Origin: a bacterium
Lineage (GTDB): Bacteria; DYJV01; JALVYZ01
Assembly: GCA_027037705.1 (NCBI GenBank)
Contig: JALVYZ010000394.1
Coordinates: 1 to 20,741 of the forward strand
Direction of reading: 5' to 3'
DNA length: 20,741 bases
The notes under the pieces: generated by a model
The model's input: the letters and a program-made list of their open reading frames with translations, nothing else
The model's database searches: none
Told to the model about the DNA's origin: nothing
In this document: positions 3,326-12,619 of the stretch, piece after piece
Layout: each line of letters starts with the position of its first letter
Numbering within the stretch: the first letter of the stretch is position 1
Made by a program: the position numbers and the translations under genes

Positions 3326-4200
3326 TGAAAAATATACTACAATTCATTCTTTCAGGATTAACCACTGGGAGTATCTATGCTTTAATTGCAATAGGTTTTT
3401 CTGTTATCCATAACGCAACTGGAATTGTTAATATTATGCAATGTGAATTTATAACTTATGGAGGTATGCTTACAGTTACTTTTTATATTTTTTCAAAATT
3501 TCCATATTTTATTGCAATCCCTCTATCAATTATTTGCGTTAGCATAATGGCAGGTTTATTTGAAAGAGTTGTTATCAGAAATTCAAAGTCAAAAGATATA
3601 ATTATTTTAATTTTTATTACAATTGGAGCTTCAATTTTTTTTAAAGGACTTGCTCTTTTAATATGGGGATCAGATCCATTTATGTTGCCACCTTTTTCAG
3701 GAAACCAGCCAATAAAAATATTTAATGCAGTTATAATTCCACAGAATCTATGGGTAATAGGAATTTCAATAATAACAGTAATACTGCTACATCTTTTCTT
3801 TCATAAAACCATAACTGGAAAAGCTATGAGAGCAGTGGCAAATAATAAAAAAGCAGCCCAAATTGTTGGAATAAATATTAATAGAATTGTATTTCTCTCT
3901 TTCGTAATTGGAGGATTTTTAGGAGCTCTTGCTGGAATAATTATAGCTCCAATAACAACTACTTCTTATGATGTGGGGTTTATGCTTGGACTAAAAGGTT
4001 TTGCTGCTGCAATTTTAGGTGGTTATGGAAGTATGGGGGGCTCAATAATTGGAGGGATATTATTAGGACTTCTTGAAAATCTTGGTGCAGGATTGATTTC
4101 TTCAGAATATAAAGATGTAATTGCTTTTGTAGTGCTTATACTGGTTATTTATGTTAAACCTTCTGGAATACTTGGCCTTGCAAAGGTAGAAAGGGTTTAA
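3325..4200 (+). CDS. livH: Branched-chain amino acid-type ABC transporter permease LivH
   Basis: A 291-residue inner-membrane permease of the LivH family, with about eight hydrophobic segments. Landmarks are the opening 'GLTTGSIYALIAIGFSVI', the 'GIVNIMQCEF' stretch, the cytoplasmic coupling loop 'GKAMRAVANNKKAAQIVGIN' and the 'FAAAILGGYGSMGGSIIGG' segment near the C-terminus. With LivM it forms the translocation channel, energised by LivG and LivF. Translation is coupled to the CoA-transferase gene through the overlapping TAATG, and no separate SD is evident. LivH-type importers carry branched-chain amino acids but also amides, urea, and aromatic and other carboxylates. The neighbours here favour an organic acid. 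Confidence 0.94.
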   Translation: MKNILQFILSGLTTGSIYALIAIGFSVIHNATGIVNIMQCEFITYGGMLTVTFYIFSKFPYFIAIPLSIICVSIMAGLFERVVIRNSKSKDIIILIFITIGASIFFKGLALLIWGSDPFMLPPFSGNQPIKIFNAVIIPQNLWVIGISIITVILLHLFFHKTITGKAMRAVANNKKAAQIVGININRIVFLSFVIGGFLGALAGIIIAPITTTSYDVGFMLGLKGFAAAILGGYGSMGGSIIGGILLGLLENLGAGLISSEYKDVIAFVVLILVIYVKPSGILGLAKVERV

Positions 4201-7801: not shown

Positions 7802-7803
7802 AA

Positions 7804-7911
7804 GTATATGCGTATATGAGAAGATGCGAAAATGCGATTTTTTAAAATAAGTTTTTCCCGCATATACACATTAACGCTTTCACGCATTTACGCATCCACG
7901 CATTTACGCAT
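7804..7911. repeat. Family A short-period repeat, copy 2: 8-bp ATGCGNNN units in two facing arms
   Basis: The left arm has four exact 8-bp units at 7808-7839 (ATGCGTAT, ATGAGAAG, ATGCGAAA, ATGCGATT). After a 16-bp AT-rich spacer, the right arm has seven exact 8-bp units at 7856-7911 (TCCCGCAT, ATACACAT, TAACGCTT, TCACGCAT, TTACGCAT, CCACGCAT, TTACGCAT). Positions 7804-7812 and 7859-7867 pair perfectly. The minus-strand word from 7904 to 7890 is identical over 15 bp to 81-95 of copy 1. The element fills almost the whole gap between the acyl-CoA dehydrogenase stop and the SD of the GntR gene. Confidence 0.86.
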
Positions 7912-10210: not shown

Positions 10211-10238
10211 AATAAAAAGGGCGGGAGGGAGACCGCCC
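10211..10238 (-). terminator. Intrinsic terminator of the dcw operon, after ftsZ
   Basis: On the minus strand GGGCGG, an 8-nt loop UCUCCCUC and CCGCCC (complement of 10219-10238) form a perfect 6-bp all-G/C stem, followed by a U-rich tract (complement of 10211-10218). It begins 6 nt after the ftsZ stop codon. A G/C-only stem in such AT-rich DNA makes this a confident call. The loop plus adjoining bases is complementary to the ftsZ SD (see findings). Confidence 0.93.
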
Positions 10239-10243
10239 AAATT

Positions 10244-11368
10244 TTAGTCTGGTTTCCTCCTTAAAAAAGTTGGAATATCGTAGATATCATGATCTAAATC
10301 ATCTCCTAAATCGTAATTAATACCAGAATTTGCAACTTTCTTTGTATTACTCTTTTGAGTATCAATAATATTAATTCTATTTGGTGAATTTAAATTATAT
10401 CCTTCTTCGTTTTCAAAACCTGTAGCAATTATAGTTACCCGTAGTTCATCCTGTAAATTATCATTAAATTTTACACCAAATATAATATTAGCATCTTCAT
10501 GAGCTGCTTCTTGAATCATTGAGCATGCTTCCTGAATTTCCATCATAGTCATATCAGATGAACCAGTGATATTAATTAGAATACCTCTGGCACCATGAAT
10601 TGAAATATCTTCTAATAATGGGCTTGAGATTGCCATTTGAGCTGCTTCAATAGCTCTATTTTCACCTTGTGCTCCACCAATTCCCATTAAAGCCATTCCT
10701 CTTTCACTCATCACAGCTTTTACATCAGCAAAATCAAGCTGAATATAAGCATCAGTGGTAATTAGTTCAGAAATTCCTCTAACTGCATTTACTAAAACTA
10801 AATCAACCATTTTAAAAGAATCTTTTAATGTTAGATTTTTTCCGCATATTGATAAAATTCTCTGGTTAGGAATAATAATGAGTGCATCAACATATTTTTT
10901 TAATTCATTAATACCCATATCAGCATGTTTCATCCTTCTTTTACCTTCAAAAAGGAAAGGTTTAGTAACTACTGCTACTGTTAAAATATCAAGTTCTTTT
11001 GCAATACTTGCAATAACTGGAGCAGCTCCTGTCCCTGTGCCTCCACCCATTCCAGCAGTTACAAAAAGCATATCAGTATCTTCTAAAATTTCTTTTATTC
11101 TTTCAGCATCTTCTAAAGCAGCGCTTCTGCCTATTTCTGGATTTGCTCCTGCACCAAGACCTTTTGTTAGTTTTGCACCTATTTGTAACTTTATAGGAGC
11201 TTTGTTATTTTTCAAATCTTTAGCATCAGTATTAGCAGCTATAAATTCAACTCCTTCTACATTTTCTTCAATCATAGTATTAATAGTGTTTCCTCCACCA
11301 CCACCTACACCTATTACTTTAATTTTTGCCTCTAATTTTTCTAAATCTTCAAAAATATAATTTCCCAT
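10244..11368 (-). CDS. ftsZ: Cell division GTPase FtsZ
   Basis: A 374-residue tubulin homologue that assembles the cytoplasmic Z-ring. The N-terminal GTPase domain has 'VIGVGGGGGNTINTM' (18-32) and the signature GGGTGTG (108-114) in 'MGGGTGTGAAPV'. The T7 loop reads DAYIQLDFADV: catalytic D212 and D215 are kept, but the Asn normally two residues before the first Asp is Q210. The C-terminal domain ends in a short linker and 'DIPTFLRRKPD', the conserved peptide that binds FtsA. Last gene of the dcw operon, 21 bp after ftsA, with a strong SD GGGAGGGAG and followed at once by a strong terminator. The SD is 11-nt complementary to that terminator's loop, which suggests self-control. Confidence 0.99.
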   Translation of the reverse strand: MGNYIFEDLEKLEAKIKVIGVGGGGGNTINTMIEENVEGVEFIAANTDAKDLKNNKAPIKLQIGAKLTKGLGAGANPEIGRSAALEDAERIKEILEDTDMLFVTAGMGGGTGTGAAPVIASIAKELDILTVAVVTKPFLFEGKRRMKHADMGINELKKYVDALIIIPNQRILSICGKNLTLKDSFKMVDLVLVNAVRGISELITTDAYIQLDFADVKAVMSERGMALMGIGGAQGENRAIEAAQMAISSPLLEDISIHGARGILINITGSSDMTMMEIQEACSMIQEAAHEDANIIFGVKFNDNLQDELRVTIIATGFENEEGYNLNSPNRINIIDTQKSNTKKVANSGINYDLGDDLDHDIYDIPTFLRRKPD

Positions 11369-11369
11369 T

Positions 11370-11380
11370 GTCTCCCTCCC
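11370..11380 (-). promoter_or_regulatory. ftsZ ribosome-binding site, complementary to the ftsZ terminator loop
   Basis: On the minus strand the ftsA-ftsZ gap holds GGGAGGGAGAC directly before AAUG. This is an unusually long and G-rich SD for this genome. It pairs without mismatch with GUCUCCCUCCC in the terminator 1.1 kb downstream (complement of 10223-10233). As an SD it needs no further support; the regulatory reading is inference. Confidence 0.75.
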
Positions 11381-11389
11381 TAAAATTTA

Positions 11390-12619
11390 TTAAAAAAATT
11401 CTTTGAACCATTTTTTCATCCTGTTTAAAACATTATCAAAAGTATCTTTTTCCTTCTTTGGAAAAATATTCTTTTTAATATTTTTAGCTCCAAATAATAG
11501 TAGTCCAACAGAAGTTGCATACATTGGTGAATTAACTAAATCTGCGAGACCATGTCTAATTTTTGGAAATCCTCTCCTTACTGGCATTTCAAAAATGCTT
11601 TCTCCAAGCTCAACCATTCCTTCCATAATTGCAGTCCCACCTGTAAGAACGATTCCAGATGCAAGAGAATCATAAATTCCACTTTTCATTATTTCCCTCT
11701 TCACAAGCATAAATAGCTCTTCAACTCTCGGCTCTATAATATCTGTAAGTAATGTTTTTGGTATTTCTTGTGGAGTTCTTCCACCAATTCCAGGAACTTT
11801 AATAATCTCCTCTTCTTCAATTAACGATTTTAAAGCACAACCATGCTCAATTTTAATCTTTTCAGCACTTTCAATTGGTGTTCTTAAACCAACTGCAATA
11901 TCATTTGTAATATGATCTCCCGCTATAGTTATAACTCCAGTATGAATAATTGTGTCATTTTGAAAAACAGCAATATCAGTTGTTCCAGCGCCAACATCTA
12001 CAATTGCAACACCTAATTCCTTTTCATCATCATTTAAAACAGCTTCTGCAGAGGCTAATTGTTCAATGATTATATCCCTAACATCAAGACCAGCTCTATT
12101 ACATGCTTTTACTATATTTTGTGCTGATGCTACTGCTCCAGTAATAATATGAACTTTAGCTTCAAGTCTTACAGCACTCATACCAACTGGATCTTTAATT
12201 CCATCTTGCCCATCAACAATAAAGTCTTGAGGAATTATATGCAAAACTTCTCTATCAGCTGGAATAGCAACTGCTCTCGCAGCATCTATTACTCTTTCTA
12301 TATCAGATTGTGTAATTTCATCACCTTTAACAGCAATAACACCTTCACTATTAAAACCTTTAATATGAGAACCAGCAATGCCAGTAAAAACAGAATTTAT
12401 CTTAATTCCACTCATTGATTCAGCTTCTTTAATAGCTTCTTGGATTGACTTTACTGTCCCTTCAATATTAACGATTACCCCTCTTCTCAAACCGTAAGAC
12501 TTCGCCTGTCCAAGGCCAATAATTTCTATACTATCATCTTTAATTACACCAACAACAGCACAAACTTTTGAAGTTCCTATATCAAGTCCTGTTATAAAAT
12601 TTTCATTTTCTGCTGCCAT
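11390..12619 (-). CDS. ftsA: Cell division protein FtsA
   Basis: A 409-residue actin-like ATPase that anchors FtsZ filaments to the inner face of the membrane. The phosphate-1 motif is 'ITGLDIGTSKVCAVVG' (9-24), phosphate-2 is 'AIVDVGAGTTDIAVF', and the adenosine motif is 'GIVLTGGTAIMEGM'. FtsA's 1C domain follows the first motif ('SIEIIGLGQAKSYGLRRG'). The C-terminus 'NVLNRMKKWFKEFF' is an amphipathic membrane-targeting helix. Its ATG overlaps the ftsQ stop as TAATG, with AGGAG (within 12625-12630) in the end of ftsQ. Length and order are normal for a dcw operon. Confidence 0.98.
   Translation of the reverse strand: MAAENENFITGLDIGTSKVCAVVGVIKDDSIEIIGLGQAKSYGLRRGVIVNIEGTVKSIQEAIKEAESMSGIKINSVFTGIAGSHIKGFNSEGVIAVKGDEITQSDIERVIDAARAVAIPADREVLHIIPQDFIVDGQDGIKDPVGMSAVRLEAKVHIITGAVASAQNIVKACNRAGLDVRDIIIEQLASAEAVLNDDEKELGVAIVDVGAGTTDIAVFQNDTIIHTGVITIAGDHITNDIAVGLRTPIESAEKIKIEHGCALKSLIEEEEIIKVPGIGGRTPQEIPKTLLTDIIEPRVEELFMLVKREIMKSGIYDSLASGIVLTGGTAIMEGMVELGESIFEMPVRRGFPKIRHGLADLVNSPMYATSVGLLLFGAKNIKKNIFPKKEKDTFDNVLNRMKKWFKEFF

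Follow-up and report, generated by a model that had tools for sequence, protein, structure and literature searches.

In Staphylococcus aureus, the motif UCCCCUG in the 3'UTR of icaR pairs with the Shine-Dalgarno (SD) sequence UAGGGGG, which hinders ribosome loading and creates a substrate for RNase III (PMC3868564). OppZ and CarZ of Vibrio cholerae are autoregulatory sRNAs derived from 3'UTRs (reviewed in PMC9438474). At the enterobacterial ftsZ gene, the sRNAs DinR and DicF pair at the ribosome-binding site and block translation (PMC10907235), and StfZ is an antisense RNA from the ftsA-ftsZ junction (PMC9628754). Here we consider a bacterial ftsZ locus, in a window of 20,741 nucleotides (the whole stretch of DNA that was analysed), where a complement of the SD lies on the ftsZ message. 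The dose of FtsZ influences the timing of division, and the RNA control of ftsZ that is known to us comes from other genes or from the opposite strand. The features of the locus are these:

11390 to 12619, minus strand: ftsA, with its stop 21 nt upstream of the ftsZ ATG.
11386 to 11391, minus strand: AATAAA at the ftsA stop and in the ftsZ leader, a predicted extension of the duplex (duplex prediction).
11370 to 11380, minus strand: ftsZ SD region GGGAGGGAGAC, the 5' side of the pairing core (direct read; rarity of the 10-nt core).
10244 to 11368, minus strand: ftsZ coding sequence, 374 aa (TIGR00065, 438 bits against a cut-off of 295).
10219 to 10238, minus strand: ftsZ intrinsic terminator hairpin GGGCGG-TCTCCCTC-CCGCCC, then TTTTTATTTTT (fold; loop survey).
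10223 to 10233, minus strand: anti-SD stretch GTCTCCCTCCC, which takes in the entire 8-nt loop, one stem nucleotide on the 5' side and two on the 3' side.
10211 to 10216, minus strand: TTTATT in the U-tail of the terminator, the predicted partner of AATAAA (duplex prediction).

In the ftsZ leader, GGGAGGGAGAC at 11380-11370 is followed by a single A and the ATG at 11368-11366 (minus strand), and with the ftsA stop so close to this ATG, the site of pairing is within the cluster of cell-division genes. Our reading of the minus strand agrees with most of what a sequence-only reading had described: the stretch GUCUCCCUCCC in the terminator of the mRNA is complementary to the leader over 11 bp without a mismatch, it spans the whole of the 8-nt loop, and eight of its 11 pairs are G-C in an AT-rich genome (26.7% G+C in the sampled part). 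The terminator had been placed 6 nt past the stop, and by our measurement starts 5 nt downstream of the TAA at 10246-10244 (minus strand). The C-rich stretch spans +11 to +21 nt past the stop, where the terminator loop exposes it. Compared with shuffled sequences, the hairpin region has a folding z of -3.06, and the 10-nt core GTCTCCCTCC has exactly two occurrences in the 2.05-Mb assembly, in the ftsZ SD and in the terminator. Short intergenic repeats of the type AATGCGTAAATGCGTATATG were seen elsewhere in the window, at about 7802-7900 and 150-250.

The match was set against 470 kb of the home genome (G000) and 521 kb of a relative (G001), with genes called by a simple ORF script, and a weighted score was given to the longest perfect complement between the 25-nt leader and the gene's own 60-nt 3'UTR, where G-C counts 3 and A-T counts 2. 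Contig L165 (G000:C459), several leaders of which are GC-rich, unlike the rest of the AT-rich genome, is possibly a contaminating contig, and was excluded from most of the later statistics. In G000, ftsZ ranks first among 435 genes with a score of 30 (next 23), a score reached by 2 of 60,000 random leader/3'UTR pairs, but these figures are partly selected because the gene was chosen for looking odd, and the independent test is the relative. The weighted ranking holds across window choices; by length only, ftsZ ranks second of 430, ties included. Among 39 sampled G000 terminators, with an overall loop C content of 11.8%, that of ftsZ has the sole C-rich loop, and no other loop contains CCC or four C. 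There is little sign that SDs match their own terminators genome-wide (26 genes with terminators, own mean 11.9 against 11.2 when permuted), and ftsZ is by far the largest term in this test.

Searches by family and by phylum, and through 60 genomes and viral contigs, gave G001 as the only match within the phylum, with an FtsZ that is 68% identical to that of G000. Its SD region, GGGGGAAUU-AUG, differs from the one in G000, and its 3'UTR carries AAUUCCCCC. The SD GGGGGAATT is found directly before the ATG (L085 1474-1482), and the 3' element AATTCCCCC at L085 2627-2635 is a 9-bp complement of it, at nearly the same distance past the ftsZ stop (+14, and +11 in G000). Both sides of GGGAGGGAGAC/GTCTCCCTCCC are altered in GGGGGAATT/AATTCCCCC and are still complementary, and the changes include bases outside the G-run (AGAC/GTCT in G000, AATT/AATT in G001), which pairing with 16S rRNA is not expected to need. 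Independent variation of loop and SD among relatives had been proposed as the result that would speak against a function, and in this one relative no such drift is seen. Judged from the two sequences, the SD and the 3' element have changed together between the species, which belong to different genera. By the weighted score ftsZ is first of 451 genes in G001 in every window tried, and its score was reached by 107 of 60,000 random pairs, or by 0-9 of 3000 over the windows; by length only, its rank varies from 2 to 17 with the window. The two samples share 104 ortholog pairs, among which ftsZ stands out clearly with a Fisher statistic of 29.3 (next 13.5). The observation is unusual, and it passes the sole comparative test, that of one relative.

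In G001 a weak hairpin around the C-tract, AAAATTC-CCCCA-GAATTTT (-2.0 kcal/mol), is possible, and a stronger one further downstream is the main terminator. It is plausible, as suggested earlier, that pairing starts from the exposed loop; what the two genomes share, however, is not the terminator loop, since the C-tract of G001 stands in front of the main terminator and outside it. The 3' side of the G001 terminator (L085 2650-2692) reads GATCACCTC-TTTTTT, which we take to resemble the 3' end of 16S rRNA with its anti-SD, probably by chance. A search for the 16S 3' tail, the ribosome's own anti-SD, found no 16S in either assembly.

The predicted duplex is lengthened in G000 by the leader AATAAA and the U-rich tail, and in G001 by a similar A/U stretch. 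After the cost of unfolding, the net co-fold amounts to -13.4 kcal/mol in G000 (rank 3 of 430) and -16.0 in G001 (rank 2 of 451), and when the whole message is folded, the SD/anti-SD pairing is predicted at near 1.0 and at 0.57-0.78, respectively. Such full-length folds are less distinctive: ftsZ is second of 71 genes in each genome, and in each, 4 to 5 of the 71 have an SD/3'UTR pairing that averages about 0.45 or higher. With the 3' element of G000 as the query, the best of 430 leaders is that of its own ftsZ (-24.6, next -18.3), and the G001 element places its own ftsZ leader second of 451; when the query is cut down to the 8-nt loop, several further SDs equal or nearly equal that of ftsZ. 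The message itself is thus the preferred target, which suits control in cis, or otherwise directed at ftsZ itself, better than the damping of other purine-rich SDs offered in the sequence-only reading.

Two other genes drew attention in the sample. The strongest co-fold in G000, -21.1 kcal/mol, is that of a G-rich leader and 3'UTR of a gene on the minus strand of L136 that ends at strand position 3626, which may be a gene-calling artefact. A FlgE-like flagellar gene (L166 847-2988, plus strand) has CCTCCT upstream of the terminator in its 3'UTR, a complement of the gene's own SD, AAGGAGG; as a second ortholog case it is weak, and the CCTCC element was not seen in the G001 ortholog.

We consider it somewhat probable that ftsZ carries an icaR-like element in which the 3'UTR pairs with the SD and damps translation, and from the two genomes we put the probability of a selected pairing between the SD and the 3' end slightly above half. 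The C-rich stretch past the stop would base-pair with the SD of ftsZ, in the mRNA that carries it or, as a 3'-end fragment, in another ftsZ mRNA, and ribosome loading would be blocked for as long as the SD is paired. RNase III could cut the resulting duplex, and the output of FtsZ per message would then drop as the ftsZ transcript rises. What we show is the two sequences, their rarity and their joint change in a second genus; the pairing in the cell, the translational repression and the part played by RNase III are what we infer. A gene for RNase III scores above the family cut-off in both genomes, and a Hfq-like protein does so in G001 and falls just below in G000 (61.0 against 61.7 bits). 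In 80 ftsZ loci of other phyla no enrichment was found, the three with p below 0.05 being the chance expectation, and the element, if real, would therefore be lineage-specific.

A G-rich SD could also happen to match a pyrimidine-rich 3' end in both genomes, with the hairpin as a plain terminator, and we give coincidence a sizeable minority chance. SDs are purine-rich, so any C/U-rich loop will match some of them, and an equally C-rich stretch just past the stop is present in 4 of 430 genes in G000 and 14 of 451 in G001, ftsZ counted. The gene is only in the top 3% in full-length folding, and it was singled out from many at the first reading. On the other hand, G001 was not chosen at that reading and its ftsZ nevertheless takes the first of 451 places, and the match runs 4 nt past the G-rich core in both genomes. 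The ftsZ SD against other 3'UTRs, and the ftsZ 3'UTR against other SDs, come out at about 1 in 450 each with 60-nt 3'UTRs, although the latter weakens to 7 in 450 with 100-nt 3'UTRs.

A separate sRNA from the ftsZ 3' end that works like OppZ or RsaE, with ftsZ and a small number of further G-rich SDs as its targets in trans, seems improbable to us. It would be served by a promoter-like TTTACA-18-TATAAT (11/12) at 10457-10428 on the minus strand, inside the ftsZ 3' end and about 190 nt before the terminator, and a score of 11 or more is reached in the last 300 nt of just 4 of 362 genes; the RNase III and Hfq-like genes, and the SDs that suit the bare loop as well or nearly as well, point the same way. 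The promoter-like site is however missing in G001 (best 8/12), the full 11 nt put ftsZ 6 kcal/mol ahead of other targets, and we also count against it that Rfam gave no match above the gathering score in the window. Very improbable is a translation-sensing terminator, in which a ribosome-free SD would capture the emerging loop and disrupt the hairpin, giving read-through, and an occupied SD would leave termination normal. The duplex and the hairpin have three stem bases in common in G000, which makes a connection with termination possible, though G001 is arranged differently; if true, this reading would couple the translation of ftsZ to its own termination. The 11-bp arms are also an inverted repeat around ftsZ and might act in the DNA, for instance as a protein-binding site flanking the gene. 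This we regard as the most doubtful reading, since the arms differ in G001, coincide with the SD and the 3'UTR in both genomes, and the 10-nt core has no further copies in the genome.

The self-pairing element that we favour differs in origin from the RNAs described for ftsZ, as DinR (from the dinI 3' end) and DicF (from a prophage) come from other genes and StfZ from the opposite strand, whereas here the complement is on the ftsZ message. It is like OppZ in that the 3' end of an operon would control translation within that operon, but OppZ requires release by RNase E as well as Hfq, and the ftsZ element is a candidate recognised in the sequence. RsaE and RoxS had been named as the known parallel, and the icaR 3'UTR is a closer one. 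In both icaR and ftsZ, a C-rich motif past the stop is the complement of the message's own SD on the far side of the coding region, and by analogy a block of ribosome loading and a substrate for RNase III would be expected for ftsZ. Two marks of an icaR-type element were found: a C-rich motif in the 3'UTR that can pair with the message's own SD, and the keeping of this complementarity in relatives, the latter in one relative with both sides altered. The icaR 3'UTR is long, whereas the candidate motif of this locus begins 11 nt past the stop, sits in a terminator loop and offers 11 bp, and the gene is ftsZ. Complementarity between SD and 3' end is a simple computable test that is applicable to any set of genomes. 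If the interpretation is true, the self-pairing 3' end is a feedback on an essential gene that needs no regulator, and the principle of icaR reaches from Staphylococcus to a distant phylum, with the anti-SD placed in a terminator loop.
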